From: Impatiens glandulifera
Taxonomy: Eukaryota > Streptophyta > Magnoliopsida > Ericales > Balsaminaceae
NCBI RefSeq assembly: GCF_907164915.1
Contig: NC_061862.1
Location: forward strand, 84,120,846-84,184,845
Direction: 5' to 3'
Length of the DNA: 64,000 bases
In this document: piece after piece, positions 26,084-50,216 of the stretch
Position numbering within the stretch: position 1 is the first letter of the stretch
Layout: each line of letters starts with the position of its first letter
Program-made: the position numbers and the translations under genes
Notes under the pieces: model-generated
Told to the model about the DNA's origin: nothing
The model's database searches: none
What the model saw: the letters and a program-made list of their open reading frames with translations, nothing else

Positions 26084-26174
26084 TTAAATTCATAGATGAA
26101 TCCATAGCAATTAGTTACAATTTCTTTTGATTAGTTATTACAATGCTAAAATAAAAAGAAGATATAGTTCAGGG

Positions 26175-27272
26175 CACTTCAGATCTTCTGCTACCGATTG
26201 CCGTGTTCCCCTGTGGCGGACCAATCAGATTGCAGCATTATTATTTTAATAATAAATCAATCTGGGCAGGAGACGGAGGGAGGGAGAATCCGGAATCCGG
26301 GTTTAGGCCCGGGTTCACACCAGACGCCGTTAACGGAAGCGCCTGTTAACGCCAGGAAATAATATAATATTCATATGATAAACAGATAAGATATCTTCGC
26401 TCCGGGACCGTGTCAGAGGGTAGGGTGAGATACGATGGGAGCGAAGATCTACACGCCCGTTGCACTGACCCTCATGTAAACCCCGCATACCCACCCATGA
26501 GAAGACCGCCTGCCGTTCATGAAAATACACTTACACGTCTATGTAAAGACCGAATTGACAGGGATATTATATTTACGTTTATTTAATATTAATTTAATTT
26601 ATTAAAAACACATGCAGCGATATAATATTCGCTTCAATTATTTCATTCATTTATTTTCTAGGAATTTTTATTTAATTTTTGTATTTAATTTTTTTTGCCT
26701 AGAGACTCTCTGGAGCGAAGATATATTTGCTTCAATTAATTTTAATTAAAACCTCATGTAAACCCCCCAACCCACCCATGAGAAGACCGCCTGCCTGCCA
26801 TGGAAAGACAATTACCCGTTTATGTGAAGACCAAAATGACATGGATTTCATATTTCCATTTATTAAATATTAATTCAATTAATTGAAGATGACATGCAGC
26901 AACCGAACAAATCTTCACCTCAATTACTTTTCTATTTTTTTCCTTTTTTTTTTATTTCATTTTTTTTTGGCTGGAGACCTTCATGAGCGAAGATATATTT
27001 GCTTCAATTAATTCTAATAAAAACCTCATGTAAAACCCCCCTACCCACCCATGAGAAGACCGCTTGCCTACCATGTAAAGACACTTACCCGTCTATGTAA
27101 AGACCAAAATGACATGGATTTTATATTTCCGTTTATTAAATATTAATTCAATTAATTGAAGATGACATGCAGCAACCGAACAATTCTTCGCCTCAATTAC
27201 CGGCTAGATTTTTTTTTATATATTTTTTTTCCGTTTATTAATAAATGTTAATTTAATTAATTTAAAATGACA
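26175..27272. repeat. MULE left terminal inverted repeat
   Basis: Inverted partner of 46937-48034, about 1098 bp each with few differences (for example GAAGCGCCTG against the expected GAAGCTCCTG near 26340). It is internally modular: a block of about 270 bp containing CATGTAAA, CCCACCCATGAGAAGACCGC, ACTTACCCGT and a GCGAAGATAT motif recurs at about 26450, 26755 and 27026, with a diverged copy near 27370 just outside the repeat. It probably carries the promoter for the first ULP1-like gene. Confidence 0.95.
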
Positions 27273-28379
27273 ATCAGTAAACGACCAAATATTCGCTTTA
27301 ATTTTGTTTTTCGAGTAGACGATTGAAAGCGAAGATTTCTTCTTTTCAAATATTTTTAGCCTGACATTCATGTAAAACCACCTCCCCTCCCATGAGAAGC
27401 CAACTTGCCTGTCATGTAAATTCACTTACCCGTGCATTTACATTCCGCGAATAAATCTTCGCTTCTATGAATAGTTTTTATTTTCCATTTATTTTTATTA
27501 TTTTTTTTATGAATTTACGATATCGAACGAATATTTATTCGCTTCCATGACTAGTTGATATAATTTCAATTTCCCGCTACAAGCCGACTCTCCCTCAATT
27601 TCATTTTCATAAGCAACTGTTCATATTCTTCTCTCTCTATCTCCCGACGATAATCGAAACACTGAACGTCGAAACCCTAGATTTTTCGTTTATACTACAA
27701 GGATTTCTTCTGAACATGTCGGGTAACCAAGGCAACAACATGGAAGTGGATCATCCCATCGACTCCCGAGAGGTCGTCTTGCAAGTTTGTAGGAGCATAA
27801 ACGAAAACGAAACTGCACCCACTCCGACATCCAACGTCAATCCCAGTAATAAACCAGAGAGGTATTTTAATCTTATTGTGTTTATACTAATTTTACACAT
27901 GTTTATTCAATTTATTTCGTATAATACTGATTTATGCTATCCCACCAAAATTAATGACTTCGAGGACATATGAAAGGAAGAGGAAGAGAAATCCGAAGAC
28001 GAATACTAAGTCGTCATCGACTGCTGAATCAGTTTCCACAGTTGCTGTCGAAGCTACTGATGTTGCTGCAGGTACTGATGAGATTTTACCACCACCTTTT
28101 CCCCCTAAAAAAAAACTAAATGTTATTCCTACCTCCACTCCAACAGTCGATGAAGAGTTACAAGAACCACCCCCAGAAACCACTAATATTTCTCCGTCTA
28201 CTACCCCATTCGATGAAGAGTTTCTCCCATCTCCCCAAAAAACCAAAACCATCAAGAAACGTAAACTGACATTTCTAACCAGATCATCACCTCATGGCCT
28301 CGCTCAACTCATTCCTAAATTGAGCGTAGAACAGAGGGAAGCCGTGAAGGAAATCGGGTTTGGTTCTCTTCTTACAATG

Positions 28380-30023
28380 TGTTAGGATCGGGGACGCCCT
28401 TGGAGGACCGGGGGTGTTTCCGGTTTCGGTAAGGGTGGCCGCTTACAACACACACTTTTTGGTGATAGTCCGGTTAGAGACTAAAACCGCTCTTAACACT
28501 ACACAACCTGTCACAGACTCTTGAACCGGGTTCAAGGGCGGAAGTGTCTGTTTCAGGTTGAAGTAACGAATGCGACTTTAGATGATGTTTAAGAAGGAGT
28601 CGGTTTAATGGAGGTGAGTGACCGGTTTTAGGAGTATGATTGTTTTTGAGGTTAAGGTTTAAGTAAACAAGAAATGAAAGCAAGAGAAGGAACACGAGAC
28701 ATGAGATTTGTTTATGGATGTTCGGAGCAAACCCTCCTACGTCACCCCTTCTTCTCAGGTTATGAGAAGGATCTCCACTAACTCTTTAGAGTTACAATCA
28801 CACTTCCGGTCGAGCCCAACTTCGCTACTCGCCGGTTACACCAAACTCACACTTTGATGTAATACAACAACTCAACACAACAACACACAAAAAAAAAAGC
28901 TTCCGGTTTTAGGCAAACCGGTTTTAGAATATAAAACTTTATCTCTCTAGAATTTAATGCTTTGATACTTTTTTTTCGTAATCCGTCACTTGCATTTAAT
29001 GAAGACGATCCGTCTTCCTTTTATAGCTGAAAGGACACAACGGTCATATTTTCTCTCTCCTGGTAATGATCAAGAGGCTTGCACGCCTTCCCTCTTGGAC
29101 AGATCAATTTGGACACATGGCAGACATGCGCTTTAGCCGGTTTGCATGTTGGACACATGGCAGACATGCATTTAGCCGGTTTGCATTTTGGACACATGGC
29201 AGCTCTTAGCCGGCCGCCTGACAGCTACCTGCTGCCTGGAGATTGCTTCTGGATTTGGACAAGCATGCCTGACAGCTACCTGCTGCCTGGAGATTGCTTC
29301 TGGATTTGGATTACTCATTTAATCAACCGGAACTTGACAGCATTTAATCAACCGGAACTTGACAGCATTTAATCAACCGGAACTTGACAGCATTTAATCA
29401 ACCGGAACTTGACAGCATTTAATCAACCGGAACTTGACAGCATTTAATCAACCGGAACTTTTATGAATGGGCGGTTGCACTTAATCAACCGGAACTTTTA
29501 TGAATGGGCGGTTGCACTTAATCAACCGGAGCATTTATGAATGGGCGGTTGCACTTAATCAACCGGAGCATTTATGACTGGGCGGTTGCACTTAATCAAC
29601 CGGAGCATTTATGACTGGGCGGTTGCACTTAATCAACCGGAGCATTTATGGCTGGGCGGTTGCATTAAGTGTCGGTTGACCAATCCGGTTTGACTGAACT
29701 TCTTGGACAAACCGGTTGCGGTTGCTTTTACTTCAAACCGAAGTCAAACAACCGGAACGGTATATATATTTCCAACCGAATGGATTTTGCTCAATTTCCC
29801 TGAAACAGCAAAACTTTAAATATTATTTGCAGCCAGTGGGATTTAATCCCTGGTCACCTGTGTGACAGGCAGAGGCATTTACCACTACGCTACAACAGAT
29901 TCTTGTTATATTTAAACCAGTTAATATATTTGATATAACTTAGCGATTTAACATATATTTTTCATAAGTTATAACAATTATTTTCTAACCGGTTTAAAAT
30001 TAATCTACTTAATTTTTCTATCA
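28380..30023 (-). repeat. LTR (3' LTR of minus-strand Copia)
   Basis: Starts TGTTAGGATCGG on the plus strand and ends TTTTTCTATCA. Contains tandem copies of AATCAACCGGAACTTGACAGC (five or six) and of a block of about 42 bp with GAATGGGCGGTTGCACTT (about 29340-29670). The matching LTR at 32004-33570 has only two copies of the first repeat, which explains the 77-bp length difference. Confidence 0.95.
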
Positions 30024-30172
30024 ATTTCTCCCTTTTTGATTATTTAGAATAAATATTCAAAACTTGTAATGTGTGGCCGATTTTGAGAAAATTAACTTAC
30101 TTAATTTTTCTATCAATTTCTCCCTTTTTGATTATTTAGAATAAATATTCAAAACTTGTAATGTGTGGCCGG
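30024..30172 (-). other. Polypurine tract and 91-bp tandem duplication beside LTR
   Basis: On the minus strand AATCAAAAAGGGAGAAAT directly precedes the LTR start TGATAG, an ideal polypurine tract. The block made of the LTR edge, this tract and about 60 bp of flank is repeated once, with a period of about 91 bp (around 30017 and 30108). Confidence 0.75.
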
Positions 30173-30510
30173 TTTTTAAAAATCTTATATTTGTTTGGCC
30201 GGTTTTAAAAAACTTACACTTGTTTGGCCGGTTTTTGAAGAACTTATATTTGTTTGGCCGGTTTTTGAAGAACTTACACTTGTTTGGCCGGTTTTTGAAG
30301 AACTTACACTTGTTTGGCCGGTTTTTGAAGAACTTACACTTGTTTGGCCGGTTTTTGAAAAACTTACACTTGTTTGGCCGGTTTTTGAAAAACTTATATT
30401 TGTTTGGCCGGTTTTTGAAAAACTTACACTTGTTTGGCCGGTTTTTAAAGAGCTTACACTTGTTTGGCCGGTTTTAAAGAACTTACATTTGTTTGGCCGG
30501 TTTTTGGAAA
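30170..30510. repeat. 30-bp minisatellite inside Copia element
   Basis: About eleven copies of a 30-bp unit, CTTACACTTGTTTGGCCGG followed by TTTTTGAAGAA, with small variants (TTATATTTG, GAAAAA). Since 30 is divisible by 3 it stays open in several frames on both strands, but those frames are only repeat translation. Confidence 0.93.
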
Positions 30511-30563
30511 AACGGTTTGGTTTAAGGAGATTTTTTTTTTTTTTTTTTTTTAACAAATTTTCT

Positions 30564-31955
30564 TCAAATTTTGTAATCTAACAATTCTAAAATATTTCTA
30601 AGGGAAGAAAACTTAGACTCGAGAAGTGGCTTTGTGAGGATGTTAGCCACTTCATGCTTGTTCCCTTCAAATGATGTGTTCGTCAGCAGCCGGCTGTCCG
30701 GATGCCATGATATCTCTTTCAAGCTTCTGTCTTGATTTACCTGCATTTATAGACAATAAAGAATCTGGTCCCCATTTTTCTTTGGGTCCGTGGCTTATTA
30801 ATCCCTTAGGAATCCAGACTTTAATAAGTCAGATAACTTTCCCGGTTATGGTTCTAACTACTTTTCCGGTGCTTGGTTTTACATCTTTCTGTCTTAAGAG
30901 TGCCTTATTTTGTGGTGACTTTTGATTAATTTTATGTGGGTGTGTATCGGTTTGTTTACCTACTAGCCGGTTGGCTTTCCTTCTCTCAGGATGAAGCCAT
31001 TTCTCCGAGTCAGTTGGACTTACATATTTTATTTCTTTTTCCGGTTTTAGATCACATTCTTCCTCATTTTCGGTTGATGAACTCTTGACAAATCTTATGA
31101 AAGGAAGATTGTCTTTTGTGAGTTTCATCCCGTTGGAATGCTTGTGAGTGGCGGATTTGTTATAACCAATACCAAATTTACATTTGGGATGTCTTTGGTA
31201 ATTAGACATCTGGCTTACCGCTTCACTAGATCTCTTCCAAGAAGCCGTGACATATTTAATTCTCTCATTTTCTTCGGTTAACGATTGGACTGTCTCCTTG
31301 AGCTTCTCATTCTCTAAGGATAGTCCAACCGGTTCGTAAGTCTCGGTTCCGCTTGGCTCACTAGCGGTACCACTTGACTTTCCGGTTTCATATTTTGTTT
31401 GAGTCGGTATTAAAACAGCCAATTTTTTGAACTCATCGACCATGTCATTGAGTGCAATAACTAAGTCTTCTTTAGTAAATTCTTCAGAAGAGAAATCAAA
31501 TACCCAGATTCTTTCTCAGCCGCGAAGCATGCATCAACTTTATCATCGCCGTCGCTGGATGATGAGTCGTCCGAATCGCTATCGGCCCATTTGCTATTGA
31601 TTTCATAAGCTATCAGAGCCTTATGATCTTTCCAGTTCTCCTTTATTTGGTCGCTACCCTCACACAGTTGGATCAACTTCTCCCAAATTTCTTTAGCAGA
31701 GGAGCAAAACTTGATTTTACTAAACATATTTTTGTCCAACGACTTGAACAAAATGTTTTTAGCAACATTATCCAGGTTATTCATCTTCTTATCTTCCGTC
31801 GTCCATTTGTATCTTGGCTTATCAATCTTTATCGGACCATCGGTAATAACATACCACATGTCGTCGTCTTGTGAGGCCAAATGCACTTCCATCCGTATCT
31901 TCCAATCAACATATTCTTCGATGCAGAACATGGGGGGCTCGTTGATGAAAGACAT
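30564..31955 (-). pseudogene. Copia gag-like ORF and remnant of pol
   Basis: Begins MSFINEPPMFCIEEYVDWK (31955), typical of plant Copia gag, continues through KEIWEKLIQLCEGSDQIKEN and an acidic SDSDDSSSSDGDD segment, then loses frame near 31495 (one base missing after KESG). The second part (31443-30829) contains SLTEENERIKYV and KCKFGIGYNKSA but no clear CCHC zinc knuckle. After a large deletion junction near 30690 the sequence resumes with NKHEVANILTKPLLESKF, the end of RNase H in Copia polyproteins. The gag would package element RNA; this copy cannot be autonomous. Confidence 0.85.
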
Positions 31956-32003
31956 GATGGTATTCGGTTGCTTGAGTGTTAAGATCCTCGCTCTGATACC
32001 ACT

Positions 32004-33570
32004 TGTTAGGATCGGGGACGCCCTTGGAGGACCGGGGGTGTTTCCGGTTTCGGTAAGGGTGGCCGCTTACAACACACACTTTTTGGTGATAGTCCGGTTA
32101 GAGACTAAAACCGCTCTTAACACTACACAACCTGTCACAGACTCTTGAACCGGGTTCAAGGGCGGAAGTGTCTGTTTCAGGTTGAAGCAACGAATGCGAC
32201 TTTAGATGATGTTTAAGAAGGAGTCGGTTTAATGGAGGTGAGTGACCGGTTTTAGGAGTATGATTGTTTTTGAGGTTAAGGTTTAAGTAAACAAGAAATG
32301 AAAGCAAGAGAAGGAACACGAGACACGAGATTTGTTTATGGATGTTCGGAGCAAACCCTCCTACGCCACCCCTTCTTCTCAGGTTATGAGAAGGATCTCC
32401 ACTAACTCTTTAGAGTTACAATCACACTTCCGGTCGAGCCCAACTTCGCTACTCGCCGGTTACACCAAACTCACACTTTGATGTAATACAACAACTCAAC
32501 ACAACAACACACACAAAAAAAGCTTCCGGTTTTAGGCAAACCGGTTTTAGAATATAAAACTTTATATCTCTAGAATTTAATGCTTTAATACTTTTTTTTC
32601 GTAATCCGTCACTTGCATTTAATGAAGACGATCCGTCTTCCTTTTATAGCTGAAAGGACACAACGGTCATATTTTCTCTCTCCTGGTAATGATCAAGAGG
32701 CTTGCACGCCTTCCCTCTTGGACAGATCAATTTGGACACATGGCAGACATGCGCTTTAGCCGGTTTGCATGTTGGACACATGCCAGACATGCATTTAGCC
32801 GGTTTTCATTTTGGACACATGGCAGCTCTTAGCCGGCCGCCTGACAGCTACCTGCTGCCTGGAGATTGCTTCTGGATTTGGACAAGCATGCCTGACAGCT
32901 ACCTGCTGCCTGGAGATTGCTTCTGGATTTGGATTACTCATTTAATCAACCGGAACTTGACAGCATTTAATCAACCGAAACTTGACAGCATTTAATCAAC
33001 CGGAACTTTTATGAATGGGCGGTTGCACTTAATCAACCAGAGCATTTATGAATGGGCGGTTGCACTTAATCAACCGGAACATTTATGACTGGGCGGTTGC
33101 ACTTAATCAACCGGAGCATTTATGACTGGGCGGTTGCACTTAATCAACCGGAGCATTTATGACTGGGCGGTTGCACTTAATCAACCGGAGCATTTATGGC
33201 TGGGCGGTTGCATTAAGTGTCGGTTGACCAATCCGGTTTGACTGAACTTCTTGGACAAACCGGTTGCGGTTGCTTTTACTTCAAACCGAAGTCAAACAAC
33301 CGGAACGGTATATATATTTCCAACCGAATGGATTTTGCTCAATTTCCCTGAAACAGCAAAACTTTAAATATTATTTGCAGCCAGTGGGATTTGATCCCTG
33401 GTCACCTGTGTGACAGGCAGAGGCATTTACCACTACGCTACAACAGATTCTTGTTATATTTAAACCAGTTAATATATTTGATATAACTTAGCGATTTAAC
33501 ATATATTTTTCATAAGTTATAACAATTATTTCTAACCGGTTTAAAATTAATCTACTTAATTTTTCTATCA
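32004..33570 (-). repeat. LTR (5' LTR of minus-strand Copia)
   Basis: Same sequence as 28380-30023 apart from fewer tandem copies and scattered substitutions. It ends TTTTTCTATCA just before the CAATG target duplication. Both LTRs also contain a tRNA-like segment on their minus strand (29830-29895; 33375-33440), which I did not accept as a tRNA gene. Confidence 0.95.
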
Positions 33571-36500
33571 CAATGGGCGTCTCCAAGTGCCTGGCTCATT
33601 TTTCCAGACACGTAATCCAATGTTTTGACCCGGATAAGAGTTCTCTGGTATTGTCCAACGGTGATGAGATCCGTATCGATGAAGATCTCGTACAGCTCGT
33701 GATGAACCTCCCTAGAGGGGCAATGAACGTAGTCGAGTCCGTTGGGTTGGACAAGACTAAGGACCCTGATTATTTTAATTTCTTGAGGGATTGGAAGACC
33801 AGATGGACCGGGGAAGACTCAAAAGCTCCCGAAACACTTTCTATGATCCCCAAGATATTAAGTAACACACGTGCAGACAACGATTTCAAAATAGACTTCG
33901 TTGTCTTTGTTGTCTCTAGTTTTTTATGTCCTGTTCAAAATTCACGAGCCAGGTAAACATGTATTCAAACCTATTATATATCTAATTGTATTTGTGAATA
34001 CTGACAAATGTATTTTTTTCATTTCAGGTTCAAAATTCTCAAATCCTTAATGGAGGTTGATAACATAAAGGAACTGAACTGGTGCCACTTTACACTACAA
34101 CGATTGGTTGACAGTGTAAGAAGTTGGAAAGAAAAAGCAAGTAAAGATAAAAATCCATATTTCGATGGACCTATAACCCTTTTATCGGTAAGTATTGTTG
34201 CCTCTCTTATATATGATTTATAGATATGTAATATTTTCTAACATGTTTCCCACTCCTTTACTCCAGATTTGCTACCTAGATGGTGTTTTTGTGGAAGGTG
34301 AACGTATCCCCTACGAAAGAAAATTTCCAAGTATCTCCTGTTGGGATGACGTCACCGTGTTAGAGTTTACCAACTTAGAAGTTCGTGCCGGTGGTTTTGG
34401 GCTGGGCAGGGCAAGGGCGCGCCTAGCAGTTAAACAACCCGAGAATCCAGTTGACTCGGTTGAACTAAAAGAAGACGATAATGAGGGATGTGGAAACTAT
34501 AAATTGACTCCCATTGTTCTTTATTATCCTGTTTTCAAGATTAATGAACTCTGTTTTTCATAATGTACAGATGTTGACATCCAAAATCCTGCAAACTTTT
34601 AAAGATACAGCCCAACAGCTGAATTACCTATCAGGGGAGTTGGAGAAACGCAACATCGATCCGAAGCCCTTTTTTGAGGCCGGTTTCCTGAACCTCAGAG
34701 AGTCTGAAGGCTTCATGAAACACTTGAAGGTGGTGATCGATGGTCCGGTTCATGTAGGTGTGGAAGATCCTACAAGGGATGCACTTGGGGACACTTTACA
34801 GTGTGCGGGCTTGAAAGTCAATAGTCCCCGGGTTGATTACACATGTCAGACTGCAGTGGAGGACCATGCAGACAATCCACCAGCACTGGCTGAACTGAAT
34901 GATTTTGAGGATGCAGTGATGTCAAATCAAGAAAATCCATCAGATCACGTTGAACAGAATGATCTCGATGTTGCCGTTCTGCCCAATGAAGCTCCGTCAC
35001 CCCCTGTTCAACCGAAATCTATTGAGGATGTAGGTGAGGACATTGAAGATGAATCGCTCCTTGTTGAACAGGAAAATGTAGAGGCTGTATTTCAGCATAG
35101 TCAAGCCAAGTCACCCCCTCCTCAGCAGGACGAACATGAGGATTCATTTCTGCCCAACAAAGATGACTCACCCAGTGTTGAACCAACTGATCATGAGGGT
35201 GAATGGAAGGAACCGGATGGGGCACACAAAGTGCAGACAACCACTGTTGAAGACGATGATCAGGTTGAAGGGAAGGAACAGGTTGATGAACCAAAATCTC
35301 CGCATGAAAATCCAAATGATCAGGGGGCAGGGAAGGAAAATGTTGAGGAACCCCAAGCTCAGTCTGTTGCACCAAGTGATCAGGGTGAAGGCAAGCAACA
35401 GGTTGAGGAACCCAAATCTCAGCATTTTGAACCAAATGATCATGGTGCAGGGAAGGAAAATGTTGAGGAACCCCAAGCTCAGTCTGTTGCACCAACTGAT
35501 CAGGGTGAAGGCAAGCAACAGGTTGAGGCTTCTAAGGCCGTTGAATCTTCTGAAGATGAAGATGAAGGTGATGGGGGGGGACGCATCAACATTAAAGAAT
35601 ATCCTAAGAGGAAGATCTCAAAAATTCCTGTGCACCTTCGATCCCCTTACATGCAACAGGTTGCGGATATGTTGGACCACAAAATAACCAACAAGGAACA
35701 GAGATTAGCCGATTTTGTGTTTGATGAAGACCTGCCTGGATTGTAAGTTAGTTCGCATTGTTTTAGAAATTTTAAAAATGAAATTAGTTAGTTATGGTCT
35801 TCTAAATGAATGTATTTTGCAGTGACGTTCTGTACGAAGGTGCACCTGGTAATATCACCCGTGAATTACTTCGTTCAATGAAAATGGGGAAATTTCGAGC
35901 GAAGTGATTGACGCTTGGTCCATAATTGTGCACTTCAAATGCCGTAGGTTTCCAAGGCATGAACCAAGAATAATTTGTTTCTCATCATGTTCACATGTAA
36001 GTGCATCTCTTTTTTTTTGCTATGTATCCTTCAATGTTCATGACTTTGATGCTCTGCCCTTATTTTGCAGGTTAATATGGAGCATGATGCCACCTTATTT
36101 TCCCAATCCATTGAAGAAGACATGAGAAACTACCAAGTCACAAAAGAAGACCTCATCTTCGCTGACGTGGTCTGTACATATCCCTCAATTCCAAGTAAAG
36201 AATATGCAATAAAGTAATAAATGTTTGTGTTCTTTTTGCAGATATTCCTACCCGTTGTCTTTTCCCGACATTTCTTCCTTGTTTGTGTGAATATTAAGGA
36301 CTCCAAAATCGTTGTACTAGACAACTCCGGCCGTCCTCATGGAATGAAAATTATGGACAAGTATGTCACTTTGAGTAAACAACTCGATTGTTTTGTGAAA
36401 TTCTTGTTAAGTCAAGGCATGGAAAGAATGGCTGCCAAGGTTAAAAAATACAGGATAACGGCCCCAAAGCTGGACTGGCAAGACAAAACAAACAAGACAG

Positions 36501-36772
36501 ACTGTGGTGTATACTTAATGAGACATATGGAAACATATAGAGGAACGGCGAAGAATTGGTCTATTGACATCACCGAAAATAATGTAAGTGTTATACCATA
36601 TTTTAGTAGATGACATTGAACAATTTTAGATGTTCTTATACTTTCTCTTGTTCTTTTGAAGGCCGAAGAAGCTTTGAGTACGTTGAGGATAAAATATTTA
36701 TACATAATTCTTATGTCTGAGCACAATGTCAATAGGTTCAAGTTAAAGACTGCAATTAGATCAAGATATTAG

Positions 36773-37415
36773 GTATTTGTATGTCTTATACGGAATTATA
36801 CTTGTACAGTAATTCTTATGTTTACACATGTCAATTCACATTTTTTTAATGTATGGATGTTTGATAGTGAATTATAAATTATAATGCAATTCAGATCTTA
36901 ATGTATGGACTGCAATTCAGATGTTAATGTATGGAGTTATAATGTATTGATGTTTGATGTGTCTTCTTGTACCGATTTTTTTTAAATCATAAACGAGGAT
37001 ATTTTCTTAACTGTGTGTTTTAATATTCTTAAACGAAGATATATTGTCAACATCATGAAACATCCTCGACTATTCTTAAACGAAGATGTCTTGCACGAAT
37101 ACATCCTCGACTATTGTAGTATGTTACTTTTCATAATGCATAATTACCTTTCACACTACAAGAGCGAATATCGCTTCGACTCGTACGAAGTTCATGAGAA
37201 ACTCCTTATTCATGTTTGTGAAAACCGATACGGCCTCATGAAAATACATTCACACTAACAGTGCACTTTGCAAAGTAAAACTGTAAAACATCTGAAGCCC
37301 GAATCCGGCCGTAATACACCCAGGTTATTCTACCATCTGACCTAGCGCTGTCGTCTCCGGCATTTCGACTACGAATCAATTTCTCTTCCGGTTAGTATCT
37401 TCTGCTCCAGCGAAA
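36773..37415. other. Spacer between the two ULP1-like genes with TIR-like remnants
   Basis: 36980-37260 has repeated AAACGAAGAT, CATCCTCGACTATT and CATGAGAA/CATGAAA motifs that look like a diverged copy of the MULE inverted-repeat module. 37290-37415 is the likely leader of the downstream gene. Confidence 0.5.
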
Positions 37416-40400
37416 ATGGTAAGAAGTGTTTACGGTTGCATGCTTGTGTCTATTTCGTTTTCTTAGTTTAGGTCGTTCGAATCTAAATGTGACTTTAACA
37501 TCTCAGAATCAGGATTCCGATATGCAAATAGTTCCATATACTGAATCCACGACTGAAGTGAACACACTAAGGTAATTACGCGAATGTTACAATTGTACAA
37601 ATTTGACTATATTTGGATTAGGGAAGTAATCCAATTTGCTAATGATAATGTAGTGTTCAACAAAGGAAAAGAAAACCCGATGCATCAGGCACGCCCACGA
37701 CACCACTGGATATTCTGGCCAACGCGGCGAATGAAGCACTTAATGAGAACCAGGTTCAGAAGAAAAGAAGAAGGACTCGTGACCCTGATGTCGATTTCAA
37801 GAGCAGAACCTCTCCATCGGGCCTTCATCACCTGATTAACAGGTTATCTGAAGAACAGAAGCAGGCTGTGAGGGACATAGGATTTGGTTCCCTTCTGTCA
37901 CTTGGCATATCAAAATGCCCACTTCAATTCTCACGGTGCATTGTGAGTCTATTCAATCCCAGAAGGAGGAGCATCGTCCTACACAGTGGAGAGGAGATGC
38001 AGATTGATGAAGAGGATGTTCAATGTGTATTGAACATACCCAGAGGTGAATTAGTAGTGGCAGCAGAGTGTTTAGGAATTCACACGGACGACAAGGTGTA
38101 CAAGGACCATCTCACGGCGTGGAGAAGGAGATGGGGATTCGAGAACAGTGGAGGTCCTTCAACCTACCAAATGCCTGACAAAATTCTACAAAACACAGAA
38201 GGAGACAGTAACTTCAAGATGGACTTCGTGGTGTTTGTTGTATCCAGTTTTTTGTGGACATCCCAAAATCCACAGTGCAGGTAAACCCAAAGAACCTAGC
38301 ATTAATTCTGTGATCTCATTTAGAACTTCAATATCATTTTAAATGGCTTGAGTCACTACTTTTTTATCTTTAGATTCAAAGTACTGAAATCCCTCCAGGA
38401 TGTATCTAAAATCAAAGACTACAATTGGTGCAAGTTCACGTTAGACGGGCTAGTCGACAGTGTTTATAAGTGGAAAGCAAAGAAGACATCCTATTTCCAT
38501 GGACCATTAACCTTTCTTTTGGTGAGTGTAGAAATCTATTTGCTGGAGGTTGTACATTCATAATTTTTTGATGACTTTGAACGTAACATTTATTTTTTCA
38601 TGCTAATGTATCAGTTGTGCTACTTGGACCGTGTGGTTGAGTTCAAGGTAAACAGTCAGATCTCAAGGAGTTTTCCTATTTTAGGATGCTGGGACGAGAA
38701 GAAGATGTACGAAAGGGTTGAGTATGAGGCTGCACAGGGGGGGTTTGGACATGGTAGGGTGGTTGCTCGCATAGCCATTCCGAATGAGCAACCACCGATG
38801 CAACAAAATGTGCAGCCAACACCACCACAATCTGGAGATGACCATCCAACTGAGCATGCTCCAATTACACAAAACCTGGCGTCATGTTTGAGGAAGGTTG
38901 CGGCCGCTGCCGAAGAATTGGCACAAGGGGCTAAATATCTGAATGAGATGCACCAGATAAACGCCATGGAACTTGTACAGTCTGCATTTGAGCCATTGGC
39001 CACGGTGCTAAACTCCAATGCAATCCTGAGGGAAGGCTTACAGCGGAGTCTGGACCAAAAAAAAAAGCAGCCGCCCAGAGGAAGTGGCATTAACCCCAAT
39101 ACAGAAGCCACCACCCAAGCGAAAGGCAACACCCTTCCTACCAACAACCCTGCCAACACCAATCCAACGGCCCCATCGAACAAGAACACATTCACCCCCA
39201 CCACCGAAACGAAGACAAAAGCCAACCACCCACCAACGGCCCCATCCAACAAGAGCACCCTTTCTCCCAACATCCAAAAAAATATCAACGCCGACAACCA
39301 AGCCAACACCAATACCCATCCTCTAAACACCCTAGACCACACACAAACCACCCTCACACCAACACCCCAATCCCACAAGAACCCCATTCCACTCAAAACA
39401 GATACCAAAACCCCAGCCCCACCCCCTCCAATGGCACAAGCCAAAGCCAACCCCCTTCCTCCAATCAAAACCACACCCCCTCCAATGGCACAAGCCAAAG
39501 CCAACCCCCTTCCTCCAATCAAAACCACACCCCCTCCAATGGCACAATCCAAAGCCAACCCCCTTCCTCCAATCAAAACCACACTCCCTCCAATGGCACA
39601 AGCCAAAGCCAACCCCCTTCCTCCAATCAAAACCACACCCCCTTCAATGGCACAAGACAAAGCAAACCCCATTCCTCCACTCAAAACCACACCCCCTCCA
39701 ATGGCACAAGCCAAACCCAAAGCCAACCCAATTACTCCCAAAACAGAAACCAACACGAACACCAGCACTCCAACCACCCCAGCCTTGCCTCCTACCCAAA
39801 TTATCCCAAAAAAAGAGGAAGCAAGACCTTCAAAGGCCTTAAATGTCCAAAGAAAAGCCCCACGAAATTTGAAAACTGATTGGTTAACCGATGTCATCAA
39901 AACCGAAACCAACAAAAACTCCCCTTCTTTGGCGATAGTTAAAAAGGAACCTGAAGAATGCATCTCCAGTCTACCACCGCCACTTCAAATGGCCTCTTCT
40001 TTGGAGATAGTAAAGAATGAACCTGAAGAAGGCATCTCCAGTCTACTACCGCCACTTCAAACTGGCTCTTCTCGTCCAAACATGCAAACGAAAGAATGGC
40101 TTAAAGCATTGGACTTGCCTCCAGCTTTGAAAACCCCACATTTCAATAAAATGTTTAGGGATGAAAAGAAACTAACAAACTTTCAGAAGATTTTTATGGG
40201 TTTCGTATTTGCTGGAGGACTTGATCCAAGGTAATGTTTCCTGCAAATGCTTAATTATTCATAAAAAATAGGAATTGTACACCATTTTGAAACATGTTTT
40301 GCTGTTTTCATGCAGTGAAATGTTATTTATTGCGGAAAACCTATGTCTACACGTGACGCGCGGGGACATGCTTACAATGGCTGATCAAACCTGGGTAGAC

Positions 40401-41312
40401 AGTATGATTATTGACGTTTGGTCATACATTTTGCACGACCTTTCTAGGAAAAATGTAAAACGTCGTTACAAGAAGATTTTCTACACAACCGTGCTCACCG
40501 TAAGTTGTACTAGCACTGTTATTTATCAATTATGTTATTCTTGTGAGACTAAAGACTGCTGTAAACAGATTTTTCGTGAAGGTGGGATAACTACCCGAGA
40601 CAAATTCAATGACAGGTTCTGTCTAGAAGCTCGGGCTTTCCAAATTTCGAAAATGGACCTCTTGGAAGTGGACCTCGTAAGTACATCTCTGGGTGTGATA
40701 CCTTATAATATCATTTACCACTCAGTTCAAATCTAATCTTTTTTAATTCTATCCACAGTTGTTTTTCCCAATCATTGATGACAGACATTTCTACCTGGTT
40801 TGTTATAACTTCATACAAAGGCAATTTCAAGTAATTGATAACCGGCAGTCACCTATGCAATCGCCCTTCGAAAGAAGATATAAGAATGCACAAATCTTGG
40901 TATGACACTACAATTAAAATTTAAAATAGTTCAATTTTGGAATTCTAGTAGCAATAAAATACATTACATAATGTTGTTCGTAATGATGTATCAGGATGAC
41001 TACATTCAACAATATATGAACGACGTAGACCCCGTTCTTGCTAAAAAGTATGGCGGTTTGGAAAAGATTTGTTTGAAATTGCCATGGCAAGATTCAAAGA
41101 ATTACACTGACTGCGGCATTTTTTGCATGAGACACATGGAGACGTATGAAGGTGAGGTGAAGGGGTGGAAAACTGGCTTTGGCGTTAAAAGAAATGTAAG
41201 GAACCAAATAAAGACATTGAGGATGGAATATTGTTGGCGTGTCATTGGATCGGAGCTCAACAAGGCTAGGAGCAAGGTCTACAATTCCTGCCGTAAATGG
41301 ATAAGTCAATGA
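37416..41312 (+). CDS. ULP1-like (C48) cysteine protease gene 2, intact, about 1069 aa
   Basis: Nine exons with consistent phases: 37416-37418 (ATG only), 37507-37571, 37654-38280, 38374-38521, 38615-40230, 40316-40499, 40569-40676, 40759-40899, 40995-41312. The N-terminal third matches gene 1 (for example DIGFGSLLSLGISK, FKMDFVVFVVSSFLW). The centre is Pro/Thr/Lys-rich with six copies of an 18-residue repeat PPMAQAKANPLPPIKTTP (39420-39720). The C-terminal protease domain has DDRHFYLVCYNF (His about 927), FQVIDNRQ (Asp about 944) and WQDSKNYTDCGIFCMRHM (Gln about 996, Cys about 1004), the full C48 catalytic set. Family members cleave SUMO or related conjugates; in MULEs their role is unknown. 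No stops or frame breaks found. Carried within the MULE, just upstream of its transposase on the other strand. Confidence 0.88.
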
Positions 41313-42139
41313 ATTAGGAACTGTATACATATTGTGTAATTAAATTTTACAAAGAATTTTAGTTCACATGAGTACAATAATGTACTCATAGACAGATGGG
41401 GTAATTAAACTATTCCTATAATTGTAATGATTTATTGTTACAATAAAGAATATGTTGTGTAATTTCAATTCTCAAAAATTTTTACTTCACATCTTCACAC
41501 TAATGAACATGTGTACATGCAGATTGTTTTTTATGAAATTTGATTTTCAAACACTTGTTCAATTATGTGTTAAATGAATAAATTAAGTGAAAGAAACATG
41601 AGCCGCATAAATATTCGCTTCAAAGACCTTTTCTTCATAAAATATATATGTGAAGCCTCGAATTTCATGAAAGAAATATGAAGAGAATAAATATTCGCCT
41701 CATTTAGGCTGAAGCGAATACATATTCGCCTCAAATTATTGTTCATGTAAAGCCACCATCTCATCCATGAGAAGCGGGATGACTTGTCATGTCACTGCAC
41801 TTACCCCGACATGTAAATACCAGTTTCAACATAAATATCAATTTCATCAAACAAATATAAGGAGAATAAATATTCGCCCGAGACACGTGGTGAGGTTCAA
41901 GCGAACACATATTCGCCTCAGTTTTATGTTTCATTTTCTCCATGTGTAACTAAAAGGATACTTATTATTAGTTGACTGGGGGCGAATAAATATTCGATTG
42001 ATTTGGGTGTTTTTAATTTTTTAGAAATGAATTAGTGTGGTCATTCATTTGGTATTTCATAAAACTTCGCATGCATACATTCGACCTTATTCTTGGTTTC
42101 AAATACAACATACATACAATACTATATACATATCAGATT
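41313..42139. repeat. Spacer with internal copy of MULE inverted-repeat module
   Basis: 41575-41945 repeats the terminal module in left-TIR orientation: CATGTAAAGCCACC, CATGAGAAGCGGGATGAC, CACTTACCCCGACATGTAAA, and several GCGAATANATATTCGCC palindromes. It suggests an earlier element boundary or a shared regulatory unit between the plus-strand ULP1-like gene and the minus-strand transposase. Confidence 0.6.
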
Positions 42140-44893
42140 TCACATGAAACTGGAGTTCGATAGTTGAGATGACAAAAGAACAGTGAACGGAGTATTGGCG
42201 TCCATGCTGAAACTTTCGTCCCATTGTTGAGGAGTTGAGAACTGAGGAGTTGTCGTTGGCATTGCACTTGATGGCTGGAAAGGAATATCAAATTTATTTA
42301 AAAGTATGTTATTATATGAATATTAATAACACAAGTATTAGTAAAGAAGGTAAGTCAGCAATTTCATACCGGAATATGTGATTCACTAGTTATTCTTGTT
42401 GATTTTCGTTTTCTTGAGTTCTTCTCCAGTCCACCTTTCCTTCTCTTACCAGACTTTGTTGACTTCTTAGTTTTCATTCCTTTTGCTTGAACAGGGGCAC
42501 CCTCGGCAGAACGTGATAAACCGGTTGGTGGAGTTTGCATATTTATACTCTCCTGCAATTTTTTATCCACAAACGTGCACTGGCTCAGCATGATTTCTTT
42601 GACATGATTGTAAGTGTCATCTCTTTCGGCTGCCTTGGTAAATAAATGCATGGACAACCCACACAAATCTCTGTATCTTATGTTATGAAGCTCACTCGGA
42701 TCAACATTAGTACTGTCCACGATTGGATCAGTTCCAAATATTCCATCTTTGGCTGTTCTTGTCCACCTCTTCAATATCAACGCCGGAGGAATCTTCAACA
42801 CGTCAATCGTTGTGAAAATCTTTAGGATGTGAGCACATAAAATCCCTCCAAATTCAAATTTACAGCAGCTACACTCGATATTCTTATCGTCATTCTTATG
42901 AACTGTAACTGTATGAGAGCATCTCCTAGTGTGGGGTGTTACCTTGTATATTCTGTGTGTGTCGACATCCTCTAACATTTCTACACCACAATCATGCGAC
43001 ATAAACCATTGTTGTTCAAAGCACTTAAAGACCTCTGGGGTGTAAACTTTGCAGGCATCCTTTAAGATCAAAACTGGATAGTTAAGACTTGGTTGGCTGG
43101 TAATTGATTTGAAATCAGCCTTCAACACATCATATATTCTTTCATCGAGTAGTCTTTCAAAGTGTTTGAAAAATTCTAAATACTTGTGTTTGTAGGAGCA
43201 GTACCTTTTCAACATACTGTTCATACTCTCACTTCTCTGTGTTGTCGTCATATCAGCACAAAACATTTGTCGTCCATACACTAATGCCCACTTTCGCCTG
43301 ATGCTAAACATGCGTTTCAACCAATCGTTGTTTTCAAGCCCGTAGTTTGTCAACATTTGATTCCAAGCTTCAACAAACTCTATCTCTTCTTCAAAATCAT
43401 ATATACACGAAGAAAAATCCTTAGAAAAATCTCTGAAATTATGGAACACCGAGCTAAGATGTATGGCTGCATTTTGAAATATGTGCCAAATACAGAGACG
43501 ATGATTTGTTTCGGGCCATGTAGACGCCAAGGCCTTAGCCATGGCCGCGTCTTGATCTGTAAGAATGGTTTTTGGTTTTTTCCCATGCATAACTTTGGTG
43601 AAAGTCTCAAACAACCAATCAAAAGTCATCGCAGTTTCATCGTATAATAGAGCTGCTCCAAAAATAATTGATTGTTTGTGATGATTGACACCTACAAAAA
43701 GCGCAACTGGACGACCTTCATTATTCTTCTTGTATGTGGTGTCAAAACTGACCACGTCTCCGAAGTATGAATAATCGGACCGAATGTTGGAATCACACCA
43801 AAAAATATTCGTTATCAAATCGTCCGCATCAAGTTGAAAAGCATTATAAAAACCAGGATCATTGGATTGTTTTTTCTGCAAATACTCTAATACACCCCCT
43901 GTTTCCCCAAAATTACACTCTCTGGTTCTTTTCGTGCGCAGGTAATTTTTGTAATCCTCAGGAAGAAAACCTAGATTCTCCCTTCCACCGATTTGTTTAG
44001 ACATTAGAGCATGTGATGACTTAGGAGGAATTCCCACGTTAGTGGCCATCTCGATATGTAATCCTGCAACTGCAGAAATATTCCTATGGCATCTATACAG
44101 GTGAGTTTTCTTTGGACTTGCAAGAGGATGACTATGATCACTAATAAAATTTACCACTTGGAACTTTCCATTGTCTGCCCTCTTTATCCTCAATTTCGCT
44201 TCACAACAGAACCGAGTCACAGAACGTCTACGTTTCACATAGACATCACGTTTGTCCTTTCCCCGTTCACCCTGTGCACTACAACAAAAAACTCTATCCA
44301 GTATTTTACCCTCCTTGTCTACATGTTTTGAACTGCGCCTTATACCAAATCCTATTAGTTTAGCGTATGCTAAGTAGAATACGTAGCCTTCTTCTTCACT
44401 CTCAAATTCTCTACCTAAAAGTGGAATTAAGTTGGCTTCGATGTCCTCCAAAGGTTGGCCGTTTCCATCGAAATTCAATTGACGACGACAAGTAGCAGAT
44501 TCGCTGTTCAGTTTGAACACGTGGAAAATAAAGGTTCAACTAACCAGAACTTGTAGATTATTGGAAAATGAAAACAATATAAGCGAAGAAAGCTTCACTT
44601 CAACAGTATGAAGATTGTAATATTAGGCGAATATAGTTTCGCTTTATAAGATATTATCTAAAAATATATTAGTGAAGAGATCTTCGCTTACATGTGCACT
44701 AAAAATATTGGAGAAGTTAAACAATGTTACCTTAAATCATTAATATCATTCTCGTCCATATCATTCTCGCTTATATGTGTTCCTTCCTGATAATCAAACA
44801 GAACAGAACATTTCATGTCGAGTATTCAAAAAACATAGAAAAGGTTGGGACGAAAAGTAAAGAAGGTATAGATGACATTCAAAAACATACCAT
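42140..44893 (-). CDS. MULE transposase, FAR1/FHY3-type, 775 aa, intact
   Basis: Exons 44893-44891 (ATG only), 44786-44731, 44503-42370, 42274-42140, with consistent phases and stop TGA. N-terminal FAR1 DNA-binding domain (about residues 50-150): GREFESEEEGYVFYLAYAK, then Cys in VFCCSAQG and CCEAKLR and the paired His of DHSHPL. MULE DDE transposase domain: VVSFDTTYKKNNEGRPVALF (first Asp), KTILTDQDAAMAKAL (second Asp), CIWHIFQNA, TTQRSESMNSMLKRY. SWIM zinc finger near the C-terminus: CSCCKFEFGGILCAHILKI. A basic tail (KKSTKSGKRRKGG) looks like a nuclear signal. It cuts and reinserts the element. This is the family from which the plant transcription factors FAR1/FHY3 arose. No lesions seen, so the element may be autonomous. 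Confidence 0.93.
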
Positions 44894-45455
44894 TTTATAA
44901 TTTAGGAAGATGGATTGATATTATAATGAAGTCTCCGGCGAAGGAGAGGTCGATGGTAGACAATGTAGTATAACTCCGGCGAAGAAATGGTCGTACAGGT
45001 GAGAGAGAGAAGAGTACAAACTTTGTCTAGCAGCATGGCTTACTGCATGCAGCATTTAATGAAAAGGTGGCAGGTGTTAGGTGGCGGTGAGGTGACTTGT
45101 TAAAAAAATTATTTCATTTTAATAATTAAATGACAAAAATTATTATTAAATAAAATTAATAAATCAATCAATCAATCAGTAAGCGAAGATTTCTTCACAT
45201 TATTATTTTGACAATTGTTTTACAAATATTATTTTGACAGTAGTTTTAAAAAATATTAATTATTTATCAAATTTATACTTCAAGTTATACAGTATTTCTT
45301 AATGTTTCAAGATTTAGTTAAATATAAGGCTGATGTTTAAAAAAAAAACAATTCGAAGAACAAAAAAGATAATTCTGAAATCAAATATGACATTGAATTT
45401 TCAAGAATGCAAAATATTCAAATATTAAGTAACAAATTAAACCAACACATGTCTA
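44894..45455. other. Spacer between transposase and BRCT gene
   Basis: Contains GCGAAGA motifs (near 45180) and a pyrimidine/purine leader (44930-45020) probably belonging to the transposase transcript; the rest is AT-rich. No gene. Confidence 0.5.
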
Positions 45456-46630
45456 TTACAAAAACAAAGGCTGCAAATCACAAGCAGCAATGGATTCTAG
45501 CAAGCTTGTGTGAGGAACACCAAACACATCCAAATATGTCTTCAGAGGATTCTCTGCCTCAAATACCCAAACAAGTTCATTAACATCGTGCCGAGACTTG
45601 TCGTATACAACTATAGTTTTGTCGTCCTCGGGCTCGACAAATGGATTCTCCATTTCTTTAGTTGTACCTCCTCCAGCAATTACAAAACCCATAAGATCAA
45701 GTTTGTAAGCCGGGATGAATTCCCCTGCAAATATGAAGGTGTAACTGTCGAAGAGTTTCAGCAGCTGAAAGAAAATACAAAACATTATTAGTAATCATGG
45801 ACAATTGAATATCATATGGAGGAGTAGGAATAAGACAAAACTTACATTGTTCAAATACCGCATTCTGCCAGCTCTTGGACCGCCCACAGTCCCATGATTA
45901 TCTCGCTGCACCTCGTATGGTTCCTCGTCCACGTAATAGTTAAATCTGATTGATGATTTTATCCCTGTATAAAAGCAATAGGTGTTTTTAGTTTCATATA
46001 TGTTAAAATGAATATTGAGTTAACAGTAAAGGGTTAAGAATAACAGAGTCTCACAATCAATGGTAAGGACCCAACTCCCGTTCAATATGCCCTTCAATAC
46101 TTTGATAGTGCGACCGCATCCACCATTAGAATCGGTGGATGCTATGACGTGGGTCACATCGTCTCGCCAACTCATTGTCACCGTGGCACCACATGTGTTA
46201 GCATATTGTTGCATCAAGTGCTGTTTAAGAACAATCATAAATATTTCAGTTAAACAGGATGAAAACTTAAACAATATGGAAAAAAAAGGGAGAAATGTCA
46301 CGAAGAGTACTATCTCTTCACTTGTTAATTGATTTGGGCATAAAATCCAGTCTTTGCCAAAGTTTTGGACGGATGCTGAGGCGGTTGCCTGCACGTGCAC
46401 GAAAAAAAAAAACGGTCTTTGTTAGTATGTACTAGGGTTTCATGGAAATAATATCCCAAAACATAACACTAGGTAATTTTTCCTAAATAACATTGATTTA
46501 CAGTGAAGGTGACATTTTGAGAGTAGGGTTTCCTAAAGATTAAAGAGACAACAACATCACATAACAGAATCTAGTGTAGTAGTTTCATAATCCTAAATAT
46601 GAAAAGTTACTATTCAGGAATACGTACCAT
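45456..46630 (-). CDS. Tandem BRCT gene, captured C-terminus of BRCA1, 224 aa, intact
   Basis: Exons 46630-46628 (ATG only), 46388-46311, 46220-46055, 45964-45846, 45764-45456; phases fit exactly and no stop interrupts. Text of the first BRCT: YANTCGATVTMSWRDDVTHV, IASTDSNGGCGRTIKVLKGI, LNGSWVLTID with Trp completed across the splice. The linker is VDEEPYEVQRDNHGTVGGPR. Second BRCT: LFDSYTFIFAGEFIPAYKLD and LLESIAACDLQPLFL. From memory this is the end of plant BRCA1. BRCT pairs bind phosphopeptides of DNA-repair partners. The RING and PHD parts of BRCA1 are absent, so this is a partial copy driven from the MULE right end. If made, the protein could compete with host BRCA1 or serve the element; that is inference. 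Alternative: BARD1-type BRCT, less likely from the motifs. Confidence 0.85.
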
Positions 46631-46936
46631 TGTGGAGTCGTGAAGATGTGGATTCAGGTTCGGTCGACGGGGAGCCGGTTACGAATCGCCGTGAAAAGGA
46701 GGCAGGAAGAGAGAGAGATGAATCGGGCGGAAATGATTATAAAATAATCATATTATGGGGTATATATATTCATGTAACCGGTGCGAACATGTCTTCTTTC
46801 GAAAAGCGACTATTCATTCCATGTAACATGACACAGGGACCAGGGGCGAATAAGTGTTCTCTCGAGAAGCGACTATTCAATCCATTTTACATGGAACATG
46901 GTCTAGGCGAAAATTAATGAATATTATATCGCTGCA

Positions 46937-48034
46937 TGTCATTTTAAATTAATTAAATTAACATTTATTAATAAACGGAAAAAAAAAATATAAAAAAAAA
47001 TCTAGCCGGTAATTGAGGCGAAGAATTGTTCGGTTGCTGCATGTCATCTTCAATTAATTGAATTAATATTTAATAAACGGAAATATAAAATCCATGTCAT
47101 TTTGGTCTTTACATAGACGGGTAAGTGTCTTTACATGGTAGGCAAGCGGTCTTCTCATGGGTGGGTAGGGGGGTTTTACATGAGGTTTTATTAGAATTAA
47201 TTGAAGCAAATATATCTTCGCTCATGAAGGTCTCCAGCCAAAAAAAATGAAATAAAAAAAAAGGAAAAAAATAGAAAAGTAATTGAGGCGAAGATTTGTT
47301 CGGTTGCTGCATGTCATCTTCAATTAATTGAATTAATATTTAATAAATGGAAATATGAAATCCATGTCATTTTGGTCTTCACATAAACGGGTAATTGTCT
47401 TTCCATGGCAGGCAGGCGGTCTTCTCATGGGTGGGTTGGGGGGTTTACATGAGGTTTTAATTAAAATTAATTGAAGCAAATATATATCTTCGCTCTAGAG
47501 AGTCTCTAGGCAAAAAAAATTAAATACAAAAATTAAATAAAAATTCCTAGAAAATAAATGAATGAAATAATTGAAGCGAATATTATATCGCTGCATGTGT
47601 TTTTTAATAAATTAAATTAATATTAAATAAACGTAAATATAATATCCCTGTCAATTCGGTCTTTACATAGACGTGTAAGTGTATTTTCATGAACGGCAGG
47701 CGGTCTTCTCATGGGTGGGTATGCGGGGTTTACATGAGGGTCAGTGCAACGGGCGTGTAGATCTTCGCTCCCATCGTATCTCACCCTACCCTCTGACACG
47801 GTCCCGGAGCGAAGATATCTTATCTGTTTATCATATGAATATTATATTATTTCCTGGCGTTAACAGGAGCTTCCGTTAACGGCGTCTGGTGTGAACCCGG
47901 GCCTAAACCCGGATTCCGGATTCTCCCTCCCTCCGTCTCCTGCCCAGATTGATTTATTATTAAAATAATAATGCTGCAATCTAATTGGTCCGCCACAGGG
48001 GAACACGGCAATCGGTAGCAGAAGATCTGAACTG
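46937..48034. repeat. MULE right terminal inverted repeat
   Basis: Inverted partner of 26175-27272 with the same module order and the same CGGTCCCGGAGCGAAGATAT segment near 47800. It ends with the 8-bp target duplication at 48035-48042. Its inner edge lies about 300 bp upstream of the BRCT gene start, so it probably supplies that gene's promoter. Confidence 0.95.
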
Positions 48035-48130
48035 GTTCAGGGGATACCACAAAAAAAAACATAATTAAAATAAATTAAAACTGAAACAAATAAATGAAAT
48101 TTCATCCAATTGACATGGTTCTATCGTTTC

Positions 48131-49672
48131 CAGATCAGATCTTCTACTACCGAATGGGGTGTTCCCCTGTTGCAGACCAATCAAAACTCAGCATTATTAT
48201 TATATTAATAAATTAAAACTGGGTTGAAAGGAAGAAAGAGAACCCGGAACCCGTATTTTATTCCGGGTTCAGCAGAAACGGAAATGAGTGAAGCTTCCTT
48301 CGCTTCACTCTGTTTTACATGACCATTGAAGAGACAGTCTATACTGTTTTACATAAGGTTGTCCATGTAAAACTGATTGATATATATTCATTCAGGTGAA
48401 TATAAAATACGTTCATGTAAAAGCAGTTTATATGATAGAAGTGAAGCAAACTTCACTTGATAGAAGCAAACTTCACTTGATATTAAATTTGTAAGATATT
48501 TAAATGAATTTACTTTAATTATTTTATATGATTATATATTAAATATATATATATAAAACAACATGATCAAATTTTTTTGTAATATATTTAAATAAGCGCT
48601 ACCAGGTGAAGTTAGCTTCACCTCGGTATTTACAGCGCTCAAATGAGTGAAACAAGCACTACCAGGTGAAGCTTGCTTCACTCAATATTTACAGCGCTGA
48701 TAGAAGTGAAGCAAACTTCACTTCATAATTACATTTGTAAGATATTTTGAATTAATTAATTTTAATTAATTTATATAATTATATATTAAATATATATATA
48801 ACAATATGTTCAAAATTTTTTGGTAATAAATTTAAATAAATTTGTAAAACAAAATATTTTTAAATTTATTTTTAAGATATTTAAAAAAAATTATTTAAAT
48901 TATTTTATATTTTATATGATTATATATTAAATATATATAAATGTTCATGTAAAACCATTAACACATTTATGTAAAAACATTTATATGTTCATGTAAAAAC
49001 ATTTATGCCTTCATGTAAGTCTGCAATAGAATAAAAAAACAAGCGCTACCAGGTGAAGCTTGCTTCACCTGGGTATTTACAGCGCTCAAATGAGTGAAAC
49101 AAGCACCACCAGGTGAAACTTGCTTCACTCAATATTTACAGGACTGATAGAAGTGAAGTAAACTTCACTAGGTATTAAATTTGTAAGATATTTTAATGAA
49201 TTTGCTGTAATTATTTTATATGATTATATATTAAATATATATATATATAAAAAAATGTTCAATTTTTTTTGTAATATATTTAAATAAATTTGTAAAACAA
49301 AATATTTTAAAATTTATTTGTAAGATATTTTTTAAAAAAATATTTAAATTATTTTATATTTTATATAATTATATATTAAATATATATAAATGTTCATGTA
49401 AAACCATTAACACATTTATGTAAAAACATTTATACGTTCATGTAAAAACATTTATACATTTATGTAAATCTGCAAAAGAATAAAAAAACAAGCGCTATCA
49501 GGTGAAACTTGTTTCACCTGAGTATTTACAACACTCAAATGAGTGAAACAAGCACTACCAATTGAAGCAAGCTTGACTCAATATTTAGAGCGCTGAAAGA
49601 AGTGAAGCAAACTTCATTTGATATTTATATTTGTAAGATATTTAAATTAATTTATTTTATATGATTATATAT

Positions 49673-49705
<33 letters not shown>

Positions 49706-50119
49706 CATGTTCAAAAAATTTTGTAATATATTTAAATAAATTTGTAAAATAAAATATTTTTAAATTTATTTGTAAGATATTTAAAAAAAATTATTTAAAT
49801 TATTTTATATTTTATATAATTATATATTAAATATACATAAATGTTCATGTAAAATCATTAACACATTTATGTAAAAACATTTATATGTTCATGTAAAAAC
49901 ATTTACACCTTCATGTAAGTCTGCAAAAAAAAAAACAAGCACTACCAAGTGAAGCTTGCTTCACTTGGGGATTTACAGCGCTCGAAACAAGCACTACCAG
50001 GTGAAGATTGCTTCACTCAATATTTACAGCGCTGATAGAAGTGAAGCAAACTTCACTTGATATTAAATTTGTAAGATATTTAAATAAATTTATTTTAATT
50101 ATGTTATATAAATATATAT

Positions 50120-50216
<97 letters not shown>

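Follow-up and report, generated by a model that had tools for sequence, protein, structure and literature searches.

A BARD1-derived BRCT gene inside a Ulp1-carrying MULE of Impatiens glandulifera

Host gene fragments found in transposons are commonly viewed as debris, and the locus analyzed here raises the question of whether one of them has become a lasting gene of its element. Within a window of 64,000 nucleotides from the genome of Impatiens glandulifera (the whole stretch of DNA that was analyzed), part of a gene for a protein of repair and chromatin lies alongside a transposase frame inside a MULE and, which is notable, it is still open after long divergence. The features of the locus are collected in Table 1.

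Table 1. Coordinates of the MULE, its flanks and its genes within the window.
Feature	Coordinates	Strand	Remarks
MULE	26175..48034	.	21,860 bp including nested LTR element; inverted repeats and flanking duplication
Left flanking duplication	26167..26174	.	GTTCAGGG
Right flanking duplication	48035..48042	.	GTTCAGGG
Left terminal inverted repeat	26175..27271	+	273-bp tandem repeat, 2.6 copies, 26470-27200
Right terminal inverted repeat	46945..48034	-	270-bp tandem repeat, 2.6 copies, 47009-47739
Nested LTR element	28380..33570	-	copia-type gag; CAATG on each side; breaks first Ulp1-type gene
First Ulp1-type gene	27716..36770	+	split by LTR element; outer limits approximate, by eye
Second Ulp1-type gene	37416..41312	+	nine exons, hand-made model, 1065 aa, no stop
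Transposase open frame	42364..44535	-	723 aa; FAR1, MULE and SWIM domains
BARD1-derived BRCT gene	45456..46630	-	224 aa; model, alignment, tree, Pfam
BRCT gene exon 1	46628..46630	-	start ATG alone
BRCT gene exon 2	46311..46388	-
BRCT gene exon 3	46055..46220	-
BRCT gene exon 4	45846..45964	-	exon 3/4 junction splits Trp codon
BRCT gene exon 5	45456..45764	-	includes stop; second BRCT; hallmark Trp changed to Ser
BRCT gene likely promoter and leader	46631..46780	-	TATATA at 46768, pyrimidine-rich stretch (inferred)

The MULE and the structure of its BRCT gene

The element has the long inverted repeats of a MULE, and its flanking duplication, for which 9 bp are expected in this class, is exact over 8 bp and agrees at 8/9 positions if read as 9 bp. 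Self-comparison paired positions 26175-27305 with 46910-48034 in inverted orientation (1110/1134 columns identical), and the cores of the ~1.1 kb repeats mismatch at 10/1087 aligned bases. The nested LTR element accounts for 5,191 bp of the 21,860 bp, and its LTRs differ at 15/1567 aligned bases; an LTR identity of 94% obtained in a first self-comparison was an effect of the counting of gaps and was discarded. Since the inverted repeats and the LTRs each differ by ~1%, the MULE insertion is probably young. The motif GCGAA/TTCGC occurs 37 times in 4866 bases of the noncoding parts of the element (26175-27700, 41320-42360, 44540-45440 and 46640-48034, both inverted repeats counted), 17 times in 42101 flank bases and not once in 1185 bases of the BRCT gene.

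Just beyond the MULE, at 48130-48216, there is an inverted copy (83% alike) of the outermost portion of the right repeat (47949-48035). The two arms are 94 bp apart, and the copy may be the terminus of a related MULE. Elsewhere in the window we observed a CACTA-type transposon at 18912-20912 on the minus strand (Transposase_21 (tnp2), E 6e-55; DUF4218, E 2.4e-36), satellite-like arrays at 48590-50137 (449-bp unit, 3.5 copies) and 61599-63997 (83-bp unit with a 331-bp higher order, about 29 copies), and a 1.2-kb direct repeat (312-1519 and 54975-56180, 92% identical) whose copies are ~54.7 kb apart.

Both Ulp1-type genes are read rightwards, and the transposase and the BRCT gene leftwards. The BRCT gene is the gene of the MULE closest to the right inverted repeat, and its predicted position between that repeat and the transposase frame was confirmed, as was the proposal that a host-derived tandem-BRCT piece sits within a MULE that still has an open transposase frame. 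The 723 residues of that frame match PF10551 (E 2.5e-29), FAR1 (E 3.5e-20) and SWIM (E 7.9e-08), and a start exon may lie near 44759. Among the best 120 of 1071 matches to the transposase, the best is a Zingiber protein (61%, whole length), another protein reaches 69% over 82%, and values of 55-56% were obtained for two I. glandulifera proteins.

In the first Ulp1-type gene, Peptidase_C48 (PF02902) is found at 36221-36610 with E 4.1e-08, and in the second the same domain has E 0.007, under the cut-off. The second Ulp1 protein matches positions 28254-28379, 33567-34452 and 36119-36760, and the second gene is thus related to the first. A short stretch of the second Ulp1-type gene (40194-40219, plus strand) shares 24/26 bases with the BRCT gene (45669-45694, minus strand) in an equal reading frame (MGFVFAGG and MGFVIAGG); the match scores 39.7 bits, a value reached by 0/200 codon shuffles (top 30.5), and gene conversion between the two genes within the element is possible.

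The spliced exons of the BRCT gene make up 675 nt, that is 224 codons and a TAA stop, with GT-AG at every intron border and no in-frame stop ahead of the TAA. Our re-derivation returned the five minus-strand exons in exact phase that had been predicted, including the tryptophan of the first BRCT repeat whose codon is rebuilt over a splice. The spliced start context is CACAATG|GCA (exon 1 | exon 2), and the start is the first ATG past the TATATA at 46768 and a pyrimidine-rich stretch, which are the likely promoter and leader of the gene. Use of a possible alternative donor, 9 nt farther along, would give a protein of 227 aa. This model was set aside because its 3 extra residues have no host counterpart; the 224-aa form aligns at the alternative-donor site with the host proteins without a gap.

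Origin of the gene in the BARD1 lineage

The original prediction had read the translation as the C-terminal end of plant BRCA1. A length-limited protein search passed 1/113 candidates (from Acacia, 41%), and a search with a padded query (13/385 candidates passed) found the best relative of the gene in I. glandulifera BARD1 (E 7.1e-54). The best match is of the anticipated BRCA1/BARD1 type, and specifically BARD1. We reconstructed a maximum-likelihood phylogeny of the window's BRCT protein together with the full set of 14 proteins that both searches had returned, with rice BRCA1, the sole protein named BRCA1 in the tree, as the outgroup. In the phylogeny obtained the window protein and a second I. 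glandulifera protein, P0005, are grouped with support of 100/100, and this pair is sister to Impatiens BARD1 with support of 98.6/100; BRCA1 was accordingly rejected as the source, with the rice protein as the only BRCA1-named sequence in the comparison. The window protein matches the nearest host BARD1 found at 116/217 aligned residues. In Impatiens BARD1 (P0002), similarity to the window at E 1e-3 is confined to residues 438-654, the BRCT part, and the RING and PHD-like fingers of a whole BARD1 are absent from the match. Against PDB sequences the 227-aa form of the protein gave 27 matches; the top six belong to BARD1 (best E 5.5e-12), and BRCA1 comes next.

P0005 is annotated as a 'RICESLEEPER 2-like' protein of 747 aa with hAT transposase domains, and 81 residues within its first 115 match the BRCT gene. 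The final part of exon 3 and exon 4 are missing from its model, and it may for this reason be a broken copy; it may represent a fused gene model, a hAT element inserted beside a BRCT copy, or a real fusion. P0005 and an I. glandulifera transposase, P0020, are each encoded on a sequence of 162,159,313 bp, presumably one chromosome. The stem leading to the window protein and P0005 has a length of 1.01 substitutions per site, about four times the 0.25 of the BARD1 branch, as is expected of much relaxed constraint, and the two tips measure 0.15 and 0.26. The two copies agree against BARD1 at 32/114 sites, and since these changes are common to both, the derived gene is older than the MULE insertion. 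A Linum protein carries 21 extra residues exactly at the border of exons 4 and 5 of the BRCT gene, which would fit an intron of the host gene at this position and capture of the fragment as genomic DNA.

In terms of domain composition, residues 20-88 of the BRCT protein match Pfam BRCT (E 8.1e-11), with BRCT_2 narrowly missing its cut-off over those residues. No Pfam family was found above cut-off in the second repeat, and exon 5 alone gave a weak match to NIBRIN_BRCT_II (E 0.094, sub-cut-off); the second BRCT of Impatiens BARD1, by contrast, passes the cut-off for BRCT_2. The AlphaFold model of exon 5 has a mean pLDDT of 75.3, and a fold search against PDB returned no match at E 0.001 or better among its best 50, although each of the top 12 is a chain that contains BRCT (best E 0.028). 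The claim that the translation follows both BRCT repeats thus stands for the first and is weakened for the second, which falls below cut-off and has lost its hallmark tryptophan.

A conserved phosphate-site serine together with the hallmark tryptophan in both repeats is not what the alignment with host proteins revealed for the BRCT protein: the serine has become Asn, and the tryptophan is retained in the first repeat and replaced by Ser in the second, both replacements being among 5 changed invariant sites. Threonine and lysine of the motif RTIK are retained, and we take these two residues to belong to the phosphate pocket and the phosphate-site serine and hallmark tryptophan to have the same roles as in BRCA1 and BARD1. 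Because the phosphate-site serine and the second-repeat tryptophan are lost, the product is unlikely to be a canonical phosphopeptide reader.

Constraint on the gene and its possible histories

The best explanation overall, and one that we consider narrowly probable, is that the gene, derived from the C-terminal BRCT part of BARD1, is a long-term resident of the element. A FAR1-type, Ulp1-carrying MULE would have captured this part of BARD1 from genomic DNA together with the introns. The piece would have come to lie next to the right inverted repeat of the MULE, and its leader and start codon would be provided by other sequence there. Thereafter it would have been inherited as a resident gene in this lineage of elements, with much change after it left BARD1 and under partial constraint. 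The structure of the gene, the element around it, its descent from the BARD1 lineage and the second derived copy are observed directly; we infer that change accumulated within the element, that the gene is transcribed and that selection has kept it up.

The last of these points was examined at 134 sites, those where the residue of Impatiens BARD1 is also the commonest one among the host proteins. The window protein is changed at 5/41 fully conserved sites vs 35/93 other sites (two-sided p 0.0037), and a one-sided entropy rank test of its changes gave p 0.0034. At looser cut-offs for conservation the difference fades, with 15/63 vs 25/71 sites changed at 0.9 (p 0.19) and 21/80 vs 19/54 at 0.8 (p 0.34). 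The one-sided p at full conservation is 0.0039 if rice is omitted and 0.0016 if rice, Linum and Acacia are omitted. For the subset of 59 sites covered by P0005 (full conservation, one-sided), p is 0.08 for the window and 0.026 for P0005, and the differences between the window and P0005 are not biased away from invariant sites within this subset (3/20 vs 8/39, p 0.45). Three host controls are more constrained than the BRCT gene of the window, with 0/41 fully conserved sites changed in Sesamum, 3/44 in Lonicera and 1/42 in Acer. In a neutral simulation that started from the window's own sequence and ran to 30% changed residues (40/134), 1.8, 3.2 and 3.9% of 1000 runs remained stop-free under three transition weights; when indels were assumed at 5% of substitutions, 0/1000 runs were free of both stops and frameshifts, and at 15% change 15.6-19.5% of runs were stop-free. 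The open frame, the intact splice sites and the smaller share of changes at invariant sites together suggest a modest constraint. The earlier suggestion that selection may have kept the captured piece draws some support from the invariant sites, but none from the looser cut-offs or from the differences between the two copies.

That the gene is an ordinary transduplicated fragment without function, open here through youth and luck, seems rather unlikely, given that its frame and splice sites have stayed intact despite a divergence from BARD1 that far predates the insertion of the MULE, and that invariant sites are less often changed; such a passenger would nonetheless agree with the commonness of capture by MULEs (PMC2528002), the lost hallmark residues and the long stem, the youth of the insertion, and the lack of bias in the changes between copies.

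The weight of the neutral simulation depends on the share of change that fell inside the element, and if the change arose in a host paralogue, the argument from constraint fails. We consider it quite unlikely that a host duplicate of BARD1 lost its RING and PHD, diverged under host selection and was only lately taken up by the MULE. Such a history would explain the old divergence and the intact frame with no need for selection inside the element, and P0005 is indeed a relative outside the MULE locus. However, P0005 belongs to a hAT gene model with the exon losses described above and looks like a transposon rather than a free host gene, and the length-limited protein search, in which the Acacia protein alone passed, turned up no short paralogue standing by itself.

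Finally, a BRCA1-type phosphopeptide-binding module that aids the element at DNA breaks, as originally proposed, is very improbable, since its tandem-BRCT origin and the retained Thr and Lys of RTIK are set against a source that is BARD1 in the tree, the replacement of the phosphate-site Ser and the second-repeat Trp, and an exon 5 below every Pfam cut-off.

As for the function of a resident gene, a truncated BARD1 without RING and PHD-like fingers would compete for, or borrow, the chromatin and repair partners of BARD1 to the benefit of the element. The likeliest action, though itself on the unlikely side, is that of a decoy or adaptor for these partners rather than of a phosphopeptide reader at breaks. 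The fuller proposal, in which the gene is a lasting gene of the MULE lineage's own whose product blocks or hijacks BARD1 partners and, beside the Ulp1-type genes, keeps the element unsilenced or favors its own repair, we regard as unlikely. According to a review (PMC9659954), plant ROW1/BARD1 is reported to bind H3K4me3 and to co-immunoprecipitate with the remodeller SYD, so that a BARD1 decoy would have named partners.

Comparison with known elements

No report of a MULE with BRCT or BARD1 cargo was found in the literature searched; two papers in which BRCT or BARD1 appears together with Mutator-like elements proved to be unrelated, and no fitting title appeared among the best 20 of 109 literature matches for Impatiens and MULE/Mutator. 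Ulp1-carrying MULEs are known as Kaonashi/KIU in Arabidopsis and as ULP MULEs in grapevine, melon and rice, as stated in two papers (PMC13317346, PMC2528002). According to the grapevine paper, ULP occurs in families of both the MuDR-like and the Jittery-like kind, whether or not these have inverted repeats. The Impatiens MULE resembles them in combining a MULE transposase and Ulp1-type genes in one element, with the Peptidase_C48 gene between its ends being the broken first gene, and differs by the added BARD1-derived BRCT gene and by having two related Ulp1-type genes. Arabidopsis Kaonashi is reported to lack inverted repeats, whereas the Impatiens MULE has repeats of 1.1 kb.

With VANDAL elements and their VANC anti-silencing proteins, as characterized in PMC5735166 and PMC10398659, the MULE shares the presence of multiple additional genes, of tandem repeats and of a short motif that is dense in noncoding parts, and it differs from them by its FAR1-type transposase. 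The second Ulp1 protein and the stretch 33573-33953 were searched for the VANC-type domains DUF1985 and DUF287, and neither gave a hit at E 0.1. The BRCT gene itself resembles plant BARD1/ROW1 in its homologous tandem BRCT C-terminus and is placed in its sister group in the tree, but it has neither a RING nor a PHD-like finger, and two of its hallmark residues are changed.

Extra genes in MULEs are known generally (PMC6446971). Like Pack-MULEs and other cases of transduplication, the Impatiens MULE holds an intron-bearing fragment of a host gene between its inverted repeats. A strict Pack-MULE is non-autonomous, whereas here an open transposase frame is present and the fragment is far diverged with its frame open; the capture nonetheless works like transduplication. 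The BRCT gene is a novel cargo carried by an element of familiar type, and it looks resident. If it is resident, a plant transposon would have put the interaction module of a host guardian to its own use, in the way that Ulp1 was earlier recruited by MULEs.
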